DNA of 39,301 nt from Microcaldota archaeon (GTDB taxonomy: Archaea; Micrarchaeota; Micrarchaeia; Norongarragalinales; JACRGE01), in contig JACRGE010000044.1 of NCBI GenBank assembly GCA_016212465.1, positions 1 to 39,301 of the forward strand, written 5' to 3'. The position numbers were made by a program, and so were the translations under genes. Position 1 is the first letter of the stretch. The number at the start of each line of letters is the position of its first letter. Under the pieces are notes generated by a model that was not told the origin of the DNA, did no database searches, and was given only the letters and a program-made list of their open reading frames with translations. Below, in pieces: positions 5,571-13,274 of the stretch.

Positions 5571-6020
5571 GTGAAGTGTCCATATTGCTCTTTCCCTGAA
5601 ACACGCGTGCTTGACTCCCGTGAGACCGAAGACCTTGAGGCGACGAGGAGAAGAAGGGAGTGCGAGAAATGCGGAAAGCGGTTCACTACCTACGAGAGGA
5701 TTGAGGAGGTTGAGCTGATTGTCATAAAAAGAGATGGGCGGCGGGAGAAGTTCAGCAGGGAAAAGCTGAAGAACGGGATTATGAAGGCCTGTGAAAAGCG
5801 GCCGGTTGGCGTGGAGAAGATTGAGGGATTGGTGGACGAAATAGAGATGGAACTAAGGAACATGAATTCAACCGAAATCGCGAGCAGCGTAATCGGCGAG
5901 ATGGTGATGAAGCGCCTCAAACGGCTTGACGAGGTTGCGTATATCCGGTTTGCTTCCGTGTACCGGGCGTTCGCAGACGCGGAATCCTTTGAAAAAGAGG
6001 TGCAGAGGCTGAAGAAATAA
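5571..6020 (+). CDS. nrdR: Transcriptional repressor NrdR
   Basis: A 149-residue NrdR of normal length. An N-terminal zinc ribbon has C3-x2-C6 and C31-x2-C34 (CPYC and CEKC) with the RVLDSRET and [13 protein letters not shown] segments typical of the family. An ATP-cone (about residues 48-138) begins [17 protein letters not shown]. NrdR binds ATP/dATP and represses ribonucleotide reductase genes at NrdR boxes. Start GTG 5571 is preceded by AAGGAGGT about 10 nt upstream. It is common in bacteria but rare in archaea, so transfer is likely. NrdR-box-like sites in its own promoter suggest autoregulation. Confidence 0.93.
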
Positions 6021-6129: not shown

Positions 6130-8115
6130 ATGATTGCGAAGATAAAGAAAAGAGACGGACGAATAGTTGATTTCGAGCAGGAAAAAATCACCACTGCAAT
6201 TTTCAAAGGGCTCAAGGCAGTTGGGCAAGGGAACCGTGAGCTGGCGGAAAAGCTCTCAGACCACGTCGCCAAAATGCTTGAAGAGCGCTTCAAGGAAGGC
6301 ATTCCGGGAGTGGAGCAGATTCAGGACATGGTGGAAATCGTTTTGATAGAAAACGGCCTCCCAGAAGCTGCGAAAGCTTACATACTCTATAGAGAGCAGC
6401 ATCGGCAGTTGAGGGAAGGTGCTGCAGTATTCGAGTACGTGGACAAGATTATTGGGAGTTACATAGACCAGTCTGACTGGAGGGTGAAGGAAAACAGCAA
6501 CGCGGGCTACTCTGTTTCTGCTCTCCTATTCCACGCAGCTGGCTCTGTAATAGCTCAATACACCTTGAACAACATCTATCCGAAAGAGGTTGGTGATGCG
6601 CACAGGAACGGCGACTTCCATGTCCATGACCTGAGTGTCGGCATAGCAGGCTATTGCGCGGGCTGGAGCCTCAGGCAGCTTCTTGCGTTTGGCTTTAATG
6701 GAGTTCCCACCAAAACCGAGTCCGTTCCAGCAAAGCACTTGAATTCAGCTGTATGGCAGATGGTAAACTTTCTTGGGACTATGCAGCACGAGTGGGCTGG
6801 CGCCCAAGCATTTTCCTCTATGGACGCCTATCTTGCTCCGTATGTGCGCACAGATGGACTGGATTACAAGGAAATAAAACAGGCGATGCAGAGCTTCGTT
6901 TTCAACATGAATATCGCTAGTAGATGGGGTAGTCAAACACCTTTTTCAAATATAACGATGGACTGGATGGTTCCAGAGGATTTGGCGAACCAGCCAGCAA
7001 TGGTTGGTGGAAAGGAGCAAGCGTTCACTTACGGCGATTGTGTGGAAGAAATGGCGTTGATAAACAAGGCGTTTATGGAGATAATGATGGAAGGCGATGC
7101 AAAGGGGAGGATATTCACTTTCCCTATCCCCACCTATAACGTGACAAGAGACTTTGACTGGGACACTGAGAACGCAGACCTGCTTTTTAAGGTGACTGCA
7201 AGATTTGGCATGCCTTATTTCCAGAATTTCATCAACTCTGACTTGAGGCCTGGGGACGTGAGAAGCATGTGTTGCCGCCTTCAGTTGGATAAAAGGGAAC
7301 TGAGGAAGAGGGGCGGCGGGCTTTTCGGTGCAGCTGAAATGACTGGCTCCATTGGAGTCGTCACGCTGAACCTGGCCCGTATTGGATTCCTGTCCAGGGA
7401 CGAGGACGAGTTTTTTGAAAGAACCAAGAACCTGATGGAAGTCGCGAAAAAGTCTCTTGAGATAAAGAGGAAAACCGTTCAAAGGAACATGGACAACGGG
7501 CTATTGCCTTATTCAAAGAGGTACCTCGGCGACCTTCATAACCACTTTTCAACCATTGGAATCAATGGCATGAACGAAGCCGTATTGAACTTCATGGGGG
7601 TAGACATAGGCAGCAAGTCTGGCAGGAGATTCGCTCTCAAGGTGTTGGATGTCATGAGGGAAGAGCTGAAGGACTACCAAGAGGAAACAGGTAACCTCTA
7701 CAACCTTGAGGCCACTCCAGCAGAAAGCACGAGCTACCGTTTTGCGAGAATAGACAAGGCAAAGTACAAGAACATCATTGTCGCAAACGAGAAGGCAGCA
7801 AAGGAGAGGGAGGCTGCGCCGTATTATACGAACTCGACTCAACTGCCCGTAGGGTATACTGATGACGTCTTTGAAGCCTTGGAGTTGCAGGACGAGCTCC
7901 AAACCAAATATACTGGCGGAACAGTGCTCCATTGTTTTGTCGGAGAAAGCATTGATGACCCGGATACATGCAAGAAACTAGTCAAAAGAATCGCGTACAA
8001 TTTCAGGCTGCCTTACTATACGGTGACTCCGACTTTCAGCGTCTGCCCAGAGCACGGATACATTGCGGGAGAGCACAGGGTTTGCCCCCATCAAGGAAAC
8101 GGGGAGAGCAAATGA
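6130..8115 (+). CDS. nrdD: Class III ribonucleotide reductase catalytic chain lacking the glycyl-radical domain
   Basis: A 661-residue anaerobic ribonucleoside-triphosphate reductase. Residues 3-90 are an ATP-cone (KKRDGRIVDFEQEKIT). The barrel carries C176 in YCAGW and C381-C382 in MCCRL, matching the active-site cysteines of class III enzymes, plus ATPAESTSYRFARID and TKYTGGTVLH. Unlike complete homologues, it ends just after C639-x2-H642 and C652-P of the C-terminal zinc knuckle, then HQGNGESK and a stop. The missing CG-x2-C knuckle and glycyl-radical loop are encoded separately at 8279-8521. ATG 6130 is preceded by GGGGGTGA; GTG 6115 is in frame but lies before it. It needs the radical glycine in trans, and NrdG (8596) as activase. 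Confidence 0.9.
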   Translation: MIAKIKKRDGRIVDFEQEKITTAIFKGLKAVGQGNRELAEKLSDHVAKMLEERFKEGIPGVEQIQDMVEIVLIENGLPEAAKAYILYREQHRQLREGAAVFEYVDKIIGSYIDQSDWRVKENSNAGYSVSALLFHAAGSVIAQYTLNNIYPKEVGDAHRNGDFHVHDLSVGIAGYCAGWSLRQLLAFGFNGVPTKTESVPAKHLNSAVWQMVNFLGTMQHEWAGAQAFSSMDAYLAPYVRTDGLDYKEIKQAMQSFVFNMNIASRWGSQTPFSNITMDWMVPEDLANQPAMVGGKEQAFTYGDCVEEMALINKAFMEIMMEGDAKGRIFTFPIPTYNVTRDFDWDTENADLLFKVTARFGMPYFQNFINSDLRPGDVRSMCCRLQLDKRELRKRGGGLFGAAEMTGSIGVVTLNLARIGFLSRDEDEFFERTKNLMEVAKKSLEIKRKTVQRNMDNGLLPYSKRYLGDLHNHFSTIGINGMNEAVLNFMGVDIGSKSGRRFALKVLDVMREELKDYQEETGNLYNLEATPAESTSYRFARIDKAKYKNIIVANEKAAKEREAAPYYTNSTQLPVGYTDDVFEALELQDELQTKYTGGTVLHCFVGESIDDPDTCKKLVKRIAYNFRLPYYTVTPTFSVCPEHGYIAGEHRVCPHQGNGESK

Positions 8116-8246
8116 GTTTGGAGAAGATGGCAATGGTGAAAAGAAATCCAAGGTTCGTGTGCAGCTGTTGTGGCAGGGAAGGAGGCGAGAAAGCGACTGC
8201 AACCTACTGCCAGGCATGCTACCACCGTTATTTGGGCTACCTTTGA
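8112..8246 (+). CDS. 44-residue zinc-ribbon-like protein between the two nrdD parts
   Basis: A short ORF whose ATG overlaps the nrdD stop (ATGA), implying translational coupling. The N-terminus is basic (MSLEKMAMVKRNPRF), followed by C-S-C-C-G, about 13 residues, then C-Q-A-C-Y-H, a plausible four-cysteine metal site. I do not recognise a family. Its place between the catalytic chain and the radical-domain gene, both of which carry half a zinc knuckle, suggests an accessory subunit or assembly factor, but this is inference. It ends 32 nt before the next ATG. Confidence 0.6.
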   Translation: MSLEKMAMVKRNPRFVCSCCGREGGEKATATYCQACYHRYLGYL

Positions 8247-8278
8247 TTTTTAAAAAAGTGAACCAGTGAGGTGATTTC

Positions 8279-8521
8279 ATGGAGTGCGGAAAACCATGCG
8301 AAGTTTACTCAAGGGTTGTAGGATATTTCAGACCAGTCCAGAACTGGAATGAGGGAAAACAAGCGGAATTCAACGACAGGCTAGAGTTCAATATGGAAAA
8401 GTCTCTCGCGAGTGAGCATGGTAACAAGGTTGAAATAGGCGAAATAGAGAAAACTACTGTTGCAGAATCCGGCAAAGCACCTGAAGAGAAGAAGCTGGTT
8501 GCTTGCGAGTGCAAAACCTAA
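8279..8521 (+). CDS. Free-standing glycyl-radical domain of class III ribonucleotide reductase
   Basis: An 80-residue protein that starts where the upstream nrdD stops. C3-G-K-P-C7 completes the zinc knuckle, then EVYSRVVGYFRPVQNWN holds the radical glycine G15, equivalent to G572 of the intact NrdD at 9292-11127. After AEFNDRLEF comes a 45-residue tail rich in K/E that ends ACECKT (C76, C78) and is absent from the paralogue. GAGGTGATTTC directly precedes the ATG, so it is translated independently. The radical loop is intact, which argues against decay. The closest known analogue is YfiD/GrcA, a separate glycyl-radical protein that replaces the damaged end of pyruvate formate-lyase. Confidence 0.88.
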   Translation: MECGKPCEVYSRVVGYFRPVQNWNEGKQAEFNDRLEFNMEKSLASEHGNKVEIGEIEKTTVAESGKAPEEKKLVACECKT

Positions 8522-8595: not shown

Positions 8596-9291
8596 ATGAT
8601 CATAAAAGGCGTTCAGAGAACTTCCCTCATAGATTTTCCCGGAAACATCTGCTCCATTGTATTCCTTGCAGGCTGCAGCTTCAGGTGCCCCTTCTGCTAC
8701 AACAAGGACCTTGTTTTAAACTCGCCGCACATTAAAGAAATTCCAAAAGAAAGCGTTTTGAGGGAATTGGAGAGGCGAAAAAATTACATTGATGGAGTTA
8801 CGATAACAGGAGGCGAGCCACTCTTGAACCAGGATTTGCCGGAATTTCTTTCCGAAATAAAACACATTGGGTTGTTGGTGAAACTGGATACGAACGGCTC
8901 AAACCCTGAAATGCTTGAGAAAAGCATAGGCGAGAATCTCGTTGATTATATTGCAATGGACATCAAAACGAGTTTAGAGAAATATGAGTTGGCGACGAAC
9001 TCAAAAGTTGATTTTGAGAAAATAAAAAAAAGTGCGGAAATCGTAAAAAATTTTGGGAAAGAATGTGAGTTCAGAACCACCGCGGTTCCAGGCATCGTGG
9101 GAGAAAAAGATATAGAAAAAATTGGGGATTGGCTGCACGGAAGCAGAAAATATTTCTTGCAACAGTTTAAGCCGCTGACAACACTAGACCCGAAATACGA
9201 GAGAATGAAACCCTATAATAAAGAAACGCTTTATCAATTCAAAAGAATTGCCACCAAGTATTTCAAGAAGGTTGCCGTCAGGGGGATTTGA
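8596..9291 (+). CDS. nrdG: Anaerobic ribonucleotide reductase activating protein (radical SAM)
   Basis: A 231-residue radical-SAM activase. The start KGVQRTSLIDFPG is characteristic of NrdG/PflA-like activases. C27-x3-C31-x2-C34 (CSFRCPFC) binds the [4Fe-4S] cluster and TGGEPLL binds S-adenosylmethionine. The enzyme generates the 5'-deoxyadenosyl radical that abstracts hydrogen from the NrdD glycine. I chose ATG 8596 because the upstream extension is a hydrophobic stretch foreign to the family. It lies between the split NrdD genes and the intact NrdD (start directly after this stop), so a single activase may serve both. Confidence 0.93.
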   Translation: MIIKGVQRTSLIDFPGNICSIVFLAGCSFRCPFCYNKDLVLNSPHIKEIPKESVLRELERRKNYIDGVTITGGEPLLNQDLPEFLSEIKHIGLLVKLDTNGSNPEMLEKSIGENLVDYIAMDIKTSLEKYELATNSKVDFEKIKKSAEIVKNFGKECEFRTTAVPGIVGEKDIEKIGDWLHGSRKYFLQQFKPLTTLDPKYERMKPYNKETLYQFKRIATKYFKKVAVRGI

Positions 9292-11127
9292 TTGGCTGAC
9301 GTTAAACTCATAGAAAGTTATTTGAACCAAAGGGATTGGAGGGTGAGCGAGAACTCCAACATGACTTACTCGTTACAGGGGCTAAACAATTTTCTGACAA
9401 CAGATTTAATCGCGGAATACTGGCTTAAAGAAATATACCCAAAGAAAATAAGCAACGCGCACAAAAACGGCGATCTCCACATCCATAATCTAGGAACTCT
9501 GGGAGCTTATTGCGTGGGCTGGGATTTAAGAGATTTGTTGTCAAACGGATTCACTGGTGCATTCGCCAAAACAGAGTCAAGGCCAGCAAAACATTTTAGG
9601 GCGGCTCTTGGGCAAGCAGTGAACTTTTTTTATACCCTGCAGGGGGAGAGCGCTGGCGCCCAAGCTTTCTCGAATTTTGACACGTACCTAGCTCCCTTCA
9701 TCAAAAAAGACGGACTGAATTACCGGGAGGTAAAACAAGCGATGCAGGAATTCATCTACAACATGAACGTGCCCACTAGAGTGGGATTCCAGACCCCGTT
9801 CACCAACGTAACCCTTGATTTAGTTGTCCCGGGTTTCCTGAGGGAAGAAACGGCAATAATTGGGGGAAAAAAGCAGAGAGAAGATTACGGGGATTTTCAA
9901 AAAGAGCTTGATTTGTTTAACACCTCTTTTGCGGAGATAATGCTCGAAGGCGACGCGAGTGAAAGAATTTTCACTTTCCCCATTCCCACTTACACCATCG
10001 CCAAAGACTTTGATTGGAACAGCAAAGTAGTTAAAAAAGTTTTTGAATTGAGCGCGAAATACGGCGTACCATATTTCCAGAATTTCATCAACTCTGACTT
10101 GAAGCCAGAGGACGTGCGCAGCATGTGCTGCCGCTTGAGAATAGACACCCGCGAGTTGAAGAAGAGGGGCGGCGGCTTTTTTGGAGCAAACCCTTTAACT
10201 GGCTCAATTGGCGTAGTAACAATCAATATGCCGAGAATCGGCTTCCTTGCTAGAGATGAAACAGACTTCTTCGAGAGATTGGATGAACTAATGGATTCAG
10301 CAAAGGAATCCCTGGAAATAAAGCGTAGTGTTTTAGAAAAACTCTGTGAAAATGGCCTTTATCCCTACTCTAAATACTATTTGAGGAACATAAAAAAAGC
10401 TTTCAAAAAGTATTGGAAGAACCATTTCTCGACGATTGGACTGGTTGGAATGAATGAATCATTGGTTAATTTCATGGGCAAAAGCATTGCAAGCGAGGAG
10501 GGAAGGGATTTTGCATTGAAAACACTTGAATTCATGCGAGAAAAACTAAAGGACTTTCAGATTGAAACAGGCAACATCTACAACCTAGAGGCCACTCCAG
10601 CAGAAAGCACGAGCTACCGCTTTGCGAGAATAGACGCGGCGAAATACAAGAACATCATTGTCGCAAACGACAAAGCGGTTAGGGGAAAGAAGGCTGCACC
10701 GTATTACTCGAACTCGACGCATCTTCCAGTTAATTACACCGAAGACATTTTTGAAGCCCTTGAGCTACAGGATGAATTGCAAACGAAGTATACTGGAGGA
10801 ACAGTATTGCATGGATTCGTTGGCGAGAGAATAAATTGGGATGGAGCTAGGAACCTTGTTAAAAAAATTTTTGAAAACTTTCGCTTACCGTATTTAACAA
10901 TCACGCCGACATTCAGTATTTGCGTAGAGCACGGATACGTGAAGGGGGAGCACTTCAACTGCCCCAAATGCGGCAAACGATGCGAGGTTTACTCTAGGAT
11001 AGTTGGCTACTACCGCCCCATCCAGAATTGGAACAATGGAAAAAAAGCGGAATTTAGAGACCGGCGGGAATACGATCTAAATTCTGTGAGCACCAGGCGG
11101 CGCTGGAGAGCAGGGACAGGAAGCTAA
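9292..11127 (+). CDS. nrdD: Class III ribonucleotide reductase, complete, without ATP-cone
   Basis: A 611-residue NrdD that begins directly with the catalytic barrel (ESYLNQRDWRVSENSNM), with no ATP-cone. Active-site residues are C74 (YCVGW) and C279-C280 (MCCRL); the zinc knuckle has C544, C557-P-K-C560 and C564; the radical glycine is G572 in SRIVGYYRPIQNWN. Start TTG 9292 follows the nrdG stop immediately, with AGGGGG just upstream. The tail (NSVSTRRRWRAGTGS) is short and basic. Without an ATP-cone it should lack dATP inhibition of overall activity (family inference). Segments are nearly identical in DNA to the split paralogue, notably 10588-10670. Confidence 0.93.
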   Translation: MADVKLIESYLNQRDWRVSENSNMTYSLQGLNNFLTTDLIAEYWLKEIYPKKISNAHKNGDLHIHNLGTLGAYCVGWDLRDLLSNGFTGAFAKTESRPAKHFRAALGQAVNFFYTLQGESAGAQAFSNFDTYLAPFIKKDGLNYREVKQAMQEFIYNMNVPTRVGFQTPFTNVTLDLVVPGFLREETAIIGGKKQREDYGDFQKELDLFNTSFAEIMLEGDASERIFTFPIPTYTIAKDFDWNSKVVKKVFELSAKYGVPYFQNFINSDLKPEDVRSMCCRLRIDTRELKKRGGGFFGANPLTGSIGVVTINMPRIGFLARDETDFFERLDELMDSAKESLEIKRSVLEKLCENGLYPYSKYYLRNIKKAFKKYWKNHFSTIGLVGMNESLVNFMGKSIASEEGRDFALKTLEFMREKLKDFQIETGNIYNLEATPAESTSYRFARIDAAKYKNIIVANDKAVRGKKAAPYYSNSTHLPVNYTEDIFEALELQDELQTKYTGGTVLHGFVGERINWDGARNLVKKIFENFRLPYLTITPTFSICVEHGYVKGEHFNCPKCGKRCEVYSRIVGYYRPIQNWNNGKKAEFRDRREYDLNSVSTRRRWRAGTGS

Positions 11128-13175: not shown

Positions 13176-13274
13176 GCCTGCCCGCAATGCCTTGAAAATG
13201 GCGTTGGTTATCTTTTCCTGCTCGAAATCAACTATTCTTCCATCCCTCTTCCTCACCTTATAGATTCGTGGCAT
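13176..13274 (-). pseudogene. Orphan ATP-cone fragment (5' end of a ribonucleotide reductase gene)
   Basis: On the minus strand, ATG 13274 preceded by GAGGAAC opens a frame reading MPRIYKVRKRDGRIVDFEQ, then EKITNAIFKALRAG: the first third of an ATP-cone. It is very close to the start of the split nrdD, with about 25 identical consecutive bases around the RIVDFEQE codons. After about 33 residues homology ends and the frame runs as nonsense antisense to the secreted-protein gene. It looks like a truncated duplicate or the remains of a lost reductase gene, perhaps the ATP-cone that the downstream NrdD lacks. Confidence 0.7.

Follow-up and report, generated by a model that had tools for sequence, protein, structure and literature searches.

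Gene Order at the Locus

The window, the 39,301-nt stretch of DNA analyzed here, encodes a class III ribonucleotide reductase (NrdD) in two parts, within a run of related genes on the plus strand. The run opens with nrdR (5571–6020, GTG start), the transcriptional repressor of ribonucleotide reductase genes, which has a Zn ribbon and an ATP-cone and matches TIGR00244 with 200 bits (cut-off 124.65). The long chain of the split NrdD follows at 6130–8115, from an ATG at 6130 to a TGA at 8113–8115. It possesses an ATP-cone (PF03477), the catalytic barrel and the first three zinc ligands, without a glycyl-radical loop, and matches PF13597 over profile positions 1–529 of 562 and NF006126 (PRK08270) with 1062.7 bits (cut-off 548). 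Its C-terminus, ...FSVC639PEH642GYIAGEHRVC652PHQGNGESK, includes the zinc motif C639-x2-H642-GY...C652-P (8044–8085) with three ligands; the fourth, the xC after CP, is absent from this chain.

The short chain, a free-standing glycyl-radical subunit of 80 aa, is encoded at 8279–8521. Its ATG lies 163 nt past the long-ORF stop and is preceded by a Shine–Dalgarno (SD)-like GAGGTG at 8268–8273. It matches PF13597 over positions 526–562 (43.1 bits, cut-off 26.2), and the family is thereby matched across both chains, each above cut-off in the Pfam scan. The N-terminus reads MEC3GKPC7EVYSRVVG15YFRPVQNW, in which C3 (codon 8285–8287) is the predicted fourth zinc ligand and G15 (codon 8321–8323) the predicted radical glycine. 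The RVxGY loop is present, but on this separate ORF rather than at the C-terminus of the catalytic chain. Downstream lie nrdG (8596–9291), the cognate radical-SAM activating enzyme for the glycyl radical (TIGR02495, 198.6 bits, cut-off 131.15), and a second, intact NrdD without an ATP-cone (9292–11127, TTG start). The latter matches PF13597 over 1–562 of 562, combines all four zinc ligands with the radical loop in a single chain (...NCPKCGKRCEVYSRIVGYY) and belongs to a different clade in the tree.

The active-site cysteines C176 (in Y-C176) and C381/C382 (in SMC381C382R) are invariant in an alignment of 11 relatives, as are C639, H642, C652 and P653 in the alignment of relatives and G15 in that of the short chains. 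The Thermotoga maritima counterparts of C381/C382, the SCCR cysteines, are required (PMC4493059). The original prediction had described an NrdD divided into two ORFs with their own starts and stops, the second beginning MECGKPC, carrying EVYSRVVGY and lying 163 nt on behind a GAGGTG. Sequence, coordinates and the division of the PF13597 profile all agree with it, and the active-site cysteines and radical glycine are intact as it claimed.

The 163-nt gap is not empty. It contains a 44-codon Cys-rich ORF (CSCC...CQAC; 8112–8246, plus strand), overlooked in the original prediction, whose start overlaps the nrdD stop as ATGA. This ORF was rejected as a conserved third subunit because no convincing homologue was found in 60 relatives (best E 0.014). 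The gaps of two other split loci (L010 and L011) hold different, unrelated tiny Lys/Cys-rich ORFs. The 210-nt gap of another (L020, G057:C44) contains repeated pieces, MTKCDKNERSLEARVREYC and MAKRDKDGRALEARVREYC, that resemble the short-chain start and are perhaps remnants of tandem duplication.

Elsewhere in the window, a fragment on the minus strand (13179–13265) is 79% identical to residues 2–30 of the split NrdD, the start of the ATP-cone, in inverted orientation. It lies downstream of the intact NrdD, itself without an ATP-cone, and looks like a remnant.

Recurrence of the Split

Further truncated NrdDs with an adjoining small radical ORF, a search for which was suggested with the original prediction, do exist, and 60 split loci were analyzed. 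They range from Micrarchaeota to Cupriavidus necator H16 and include isolates and a complete megaplasmid. Relative to the long gene, the short-ORF starts are spread over all three frames (12, 29 and 19 loci), which rules out recoding by a fixed frameshift, and the distance between the parts ranges from −77 to +322 nt. An SD-like site precedes the short ORF in 53 of the 60, and the NrdG CxxxCxxC motif was found no more than 1.5 kb downstream in 57 of 58.

The long chain was matched in 44 of 60 relatives of the window genome, many of them through the ATP-cone alone (other reductases). Close inspection of 19 loci, the window included, showed 14 to be split at or near the same place and 5 to be intact; in all 14 a short downstream ORF starts with an ATG shortly before CEVYSR. 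Because the same architecture occurs in dozens of other genomes, the split is far beyond chance. It is real and not an artefact. One relative (L005, G002:C20) has an in-frame TAG inside its long chain, for which a read error, recoding or decay are all possible.

Both genes are under purifying selection in other lineages, with dN/dS values, for close pairs where these could be computed, of 0.02–0.33 (short chain) and 0.01–0.19 (long chain). The window lineage has no near relative for a dN/dS test of its own.

Two Types of Split at the Zinc Knuckle

The C-terminal zinc site of NrdD is thought to stabilize the glycyl radical (PMC9669993, PMC5704485). Relative to this site the split enzymes fall into two types. 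In the linker-split type (n = 53) C-x2-H...C-P-x-C is complete on the long chain, and position −5 from EVY on the short chain is not a Cys. In the knuckle-split type (n = 7: the window, L005, L006, L019, L020, L063 and L069) the CPxC cysteine is missing from the long chain and a short-chain Cys sits exactly at −5 from EVY. This position is the register of the fourth ligand in the intact CPKCGKRCEVYSR, and the window's C3 stands in the same C-x3-C-EVYSR register. The fourth Cys is thus on the short chain in 7/7 knuckle-split versus 0/53 linker-split enzymes. A chance probability of about 3e-9 would apply only if the sequences were independent; they are related and therefore not independent, and those knuckle-split members that were placed in the tree represent about three lineages. 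Of 10 intact enzymes carrying a long insertion, 9 follow the same ligand rule and one (L066) has neither. Two intact NrdDs, L077 (Woesearchaeota) and L068 (Diapherotrites), carry an insertion exactly between the third and fourth zinc ligands, the site of the window's cut; L077 may be a split gene that was later re-fused.

The long chain of the window ends its knuckle at CPH, one residue from the CPKCG position of the intact paralogue, and the His of CPH could serve as a substitute ligand. The four-ligand knuckle is complete only across both chains (C639, H642 and C652 with C3), metal binding being inferred. The original prediction of zinc ligands shared between the chains is retained, with its half-and-half division corrected to three on the long chain and one on the short. 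Judged from the ligand pattern, a single zinc held in this way probably pins the two chains together in the window subtype. The further proposal of the original prediction, that the metal ties the chains, gains support from the complementarity of the fourth ligand across the 60 split enzymes, but can apply only to the minority type to which the window belongs. Such bridging is inferred and not shown.

Distribution and Phylogeny

In a sample of 295 genomes from the phylum Micrarchaeota, the match table shows a split NrdD in 32 and an intact NrdD in 14; the window genome carries both kinds. The scan of named genomes rests on the best 80 of several hundred matches. Within these, split NrdDs occur in Pseudomonas, Stutzerimonas, Acidovorax, Thiobacillus, Microbulbifer and Chromatiaceae, in Alphaproteobacteria, Acidobacteria, Omnitrophota, several CPR phyla, spirochaetes and Lentisphaeria, and in Nanoarchaeia and Micrarchaeota; intact NrdDs occur in others, for example Bathyarchaeota and Atribacterota. 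NRDD matches were present in 44 of 200 Pseudomonas genomes, and all 44 are split; in 40 the parts gave separate matches, and in 4 a single match contains a stop. On viral contigs a single close homologue was found (52%), which is intact. The Allochromatium vinosum plasmid pALVIN01 carries a short radical-subunit ORF (L144:3480–3689); neither a long nrdD nor an nrdG is annotated within about 3.5 kb of it, and it may be a stray or spare subunit.

A tree of 100 catalytic domains requires at least 10 changes between the split and intact states, so splitting (or refusion) has been repeated. The columns that define the trait were excluded when this tree was made; it is a quick tree and leaves the direction of individual changes unresolved. 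The two NrdDs of the window sit in different clades, and the intact one is therefore not a recent copy of the split one. The window protein groups with L063, a Nanoarchaeia protein with the same zinc-knuckle cut (support 86, not starred).

In eight spirochaete loci (L070, L075, L079, L084, L090, L091, L094 and L118), Treponema bryantii among them, the short chain has extra length, with a glutaredoxin-like domain at its C-terminus. CPxCP is invariant in these fusions, and the Pfam Glutaredoxin model scored above cut-off in the 2 of 2 tested. A class III enzyme of Neisseria bacilliformis has been reported with a thioredoxin-type reductant (cited in PMC4493059). By analogy, a reductant domain on the radical subunit would fit the use of thioredoxin-type reductants by class III enzymes.

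Genomes with No Other Reductase Found

Genome contents were searched with PF02867 as the marker of class I and II reductases. Six Micrarchaeota genomes, G003 (90% complete), G016, G021, G002, G026 and G057, have a split NrdD, and neither an intact NrdD nor PF02867 was found in them. In one Micrarchaeota genus, five of six genomes (G048, 93%; G074, 91%; G108, G154 and G188) have the split NrdD only, with no PF02867; the sixth, G078, has a PF02867 match. No intact NrdD or PF02867 was found beside the split NrdD of Treponema bryantii, a cultured isolate. The Nanoarchaeia MAG of L063, which is of the window subtype, likewise gave only a split NrdD and no class I/II reductase; its main contig covers about the whole 1.3-Mb genome. 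Most of these genomes are MAGs with an estimated completeness of 71–93%.

Cells that have no other reductase generally depend on a functional one, the exceptions being some parasites and symbionts that scavenge deoxynucleosides. Since there are genomes in which no other reductase was found, the split form is very likely functional, an activity inferred from genome content. In the window genome it might be dispensable, since an intact NrdD is also there.

Structure Prediction

In one Micrarchaeota homologue (L133) the parts lie in one frame with a single TGA between them, and AlphaFold was run with the TGA read as Gly. The mean pLDDT of the model is 81.7. The long chain is confident, the artificial linker (residues 696–751) is disordered at about 30–37, and the radical domain (residues 752–797) is again confident, the last four 10-residue blocks scoring 87, 84, 90 and 75. 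The top Foldseek matches of the model in the PDB were all known NrdDs. The predicted fold is compatible with docking of a separate chain, as weak evidence only: L133 is a linker-split homologue and not of the window subtype, and an alignment rich in homologues favors docking regardless.

Annotation and Literature

On the C. necator H16 megaplasmid pHG1 (L143:1298–3671) a 676-aa chain (76,191 Da) is followed by a 66-aa chain with RVMGY and then by nrdG. In 1999 Siedow et al. reportedly described a NrdD of 76.2 kDa and, on the strength of a G650A mutant, identified G650 as the radical glycine. The mass computed for the long chain agrees with this 76.2 kDa. G650 sits in the zinc motif CPTHG650YLAGEH, while the glycine of RVMGY belongs to the separate 66-codon ORF. 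If this was indeed the published assignment of G650, it is probably wrong, as read from the position of these motifs. Complete denitrification by this strain has been described as requiring NrdDG (PMC2864759, citing Siedow 1999).

In plasmid records NCBI labels the pair "ribonucleoside triphosphate reductase" and a short "nrdD"; in several such records the short-chain match falls under no listed gene, the gene tables being incomplete. Four short chains were tested, and none reached the cut-off of an NCBIfam model. The split is thus recognized by automatic annotation and known to databases. As far as databases go, the suggestion that a split NrdD might be unrecorded was accordingly mistaken, for such pairs are widespread there and carry annotation as two genes; the gap lies in the literature. 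A search of open-access full texts returned no description of a two-chain NrdD, which does not establish its absence from the whole literature. Class III is described as a one-chain enzyme, NrdD being an α2 homodimer (PMC5704485), and in a P. aeruginosa paper only the class II enzyme is called "exceptionally" split (PMC4860495).

Proposed Mechanism and Alternative Explanations

We consider it highly probable that the product of the locus is a functional class III ribonucleotide reductase made of two chains; assembly, zinc bridging, the G15 radical and activity are inferred, without biochemical demonstration. Allosteric ATP-cone, catalytic barrel and active-site cysteines would all come from the long chain (6130–8115). 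The short chain (8279–8521), presumably translated from its own ribosome-binding site, would dock where an ordinary NrdD has its C-terminal glycyl-radical domain, placing G15 under the barrel, and NrdG would install the radical on G15. In the window subtype C639, H642 and C652 of the long chain and C3 of the short chain are predicted to bind one zinc that links the chains. The free-standing radical subunit of the original prediction is supported by recurrence, selection, operon order and the genomes in which no other reductase was found.

An intact gene might instead have been broken by a frameshift introduced during sequencing or assembly, or by a nonsense mutation of recent origin, and the window does come from a draft assembly of 104 contigs. 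Nevertheless, dozens of independent genomes, with isolates and a complete megaplasmid among them, show the split, the spacing and frame differing between them and an SD site preceding the start. This recurrence refutes the artefact and leaves it practically no chance; no frameshift joins the halves, which was one of the outcomes that would have overturned the original prediction. Joining of the halves into one chain after transcription or translation, by an intron, an intein, a programmed frameshift or readthrough, has a precedent in the introns and inteins of phage nrdD (PMC3653736). Nevertheless, the short ORFs have independent, SD-preceded starts in all three relative frames, and overlaps of up to 77 nt leave no room for an intron. 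The Rfam scan of the window found no credible intron or other RNA element, and the gap RNA folds no better than its shuffles (z 0.58). The roughly 50 residues between the parts are inferred to be too short for an intein. We regard joining as very unlikely.

Decay is suggested by the adjoining intact paralogue (9292–11127), which could have replaced the split NrdD and left it a pseudogene, and by the long end branch of the long chain in the tree. This is very unlikely: the active-site residues and both reading frames are intact, no other reductase was found beside the nearest split relative (L063, Nanoarchaeia), dN/dS is well under 1 in other lineages, and the two window NrdDs, being in different clades, are not recent duplicates. 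Nor does the second outcome that would have spoken against the original prediction hold, loss of the radical ORF while nrdD erodes; the ORF is kept and is not eroding. Another very unlikely reading, with slightly more room left to it, is that the short chain is not an obligate subunit and acts as a GrcA/YfiD-like spare radical domain rescuing a damaged enzyme, perhaps the intact NrdD that adjoins it. The lone short ORF annotated on pALVIN01 without a neighboring long gene would suit such a role. The long chain, however, lacks a radical glycine and so depends on a partner; nrdG follows closely behind the short ORF at nearly every locus, and the ligand complementarity is with the long chain.

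Within the two-chain enzyme, we lean toward a more specific arrangement, held with less assurance. The catalytic and radical chains of the window would be joined by a shared zinc (three ligands plus one), coupling metal binding, assembly and radical competence. The enzyme would be part of a widespread, apparently undescribed two-chain group, to which every sampled class III enzyme of Pseudomonas and the spirochaete glutaredoxin fusions also belong. If true, a large share of class III reductases, those of Pseudomonas included, need a tiny and easily missed second subunit, and an inactive enzyme is the expected result of cloning nrdD and nrdG without the intervening ORF. The knuckle-split form would be a natural system in which to study the replacement of a peptide bond by a metal site.

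Comparison with Known Systems

The one-chain NrdDs of Thermotoga maritima (4COI), Prevotella copri (8P23) and T4 (1HK8) share with the window the PF13597 barrel and SCCR-type cysteines, together with the ATP-cone (as in P. copri), the zinc knuckle, the RVxGY loop and an NrdG partner. The window differs in that the radical domain has its own gene and, in this subtype, the fourth zinc Cys belongs to the short chain.

GrcA/YfiD of pyruvate formate-lyase (PFL) is a small free-standing glycyl-radical domain that acts in trans; it is of the PFL family and rescues an otherwise complete enzyme. The window short chain, in contrast, matches PF13597 only in the Pfam scan and shows no PFL-type kinship, and its partner has no radical loop.

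NrdJa/NrdJb of Pseudomonas aeruginosa is alike in having a C-terminal Cys-rich domain of a reductase as a separate gene (PMC5704485). It is, however, a B12-dependent class II enzyme of PF02867, and NrdJb has reducing cysteines and no glycyl radical. PF02867 was absent from the window long chain in the Pfam scan and from the whole window genome. Phage reductases in pieces (Aeh1 nrdA-a/b, phiAS4 nrdD) resemble the window as fragmented reductase genes. These are mostly due to mobile elements or recent breakage (PMC3653736), whereas the split NrdD is old, recurrent and always cut at the radical-domain boundary. The NCBI pair H16_RS32680/H16_RS32675 is the same kind of gene pair as that of the window, differing in that it is linker-split and its long chain holds all four zinc ligands. 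The window is thus the rarer, zinc-knuckle-split type of a recurrent two-chain class III reductase, a member of a known enzyme class and not a new kind of system.
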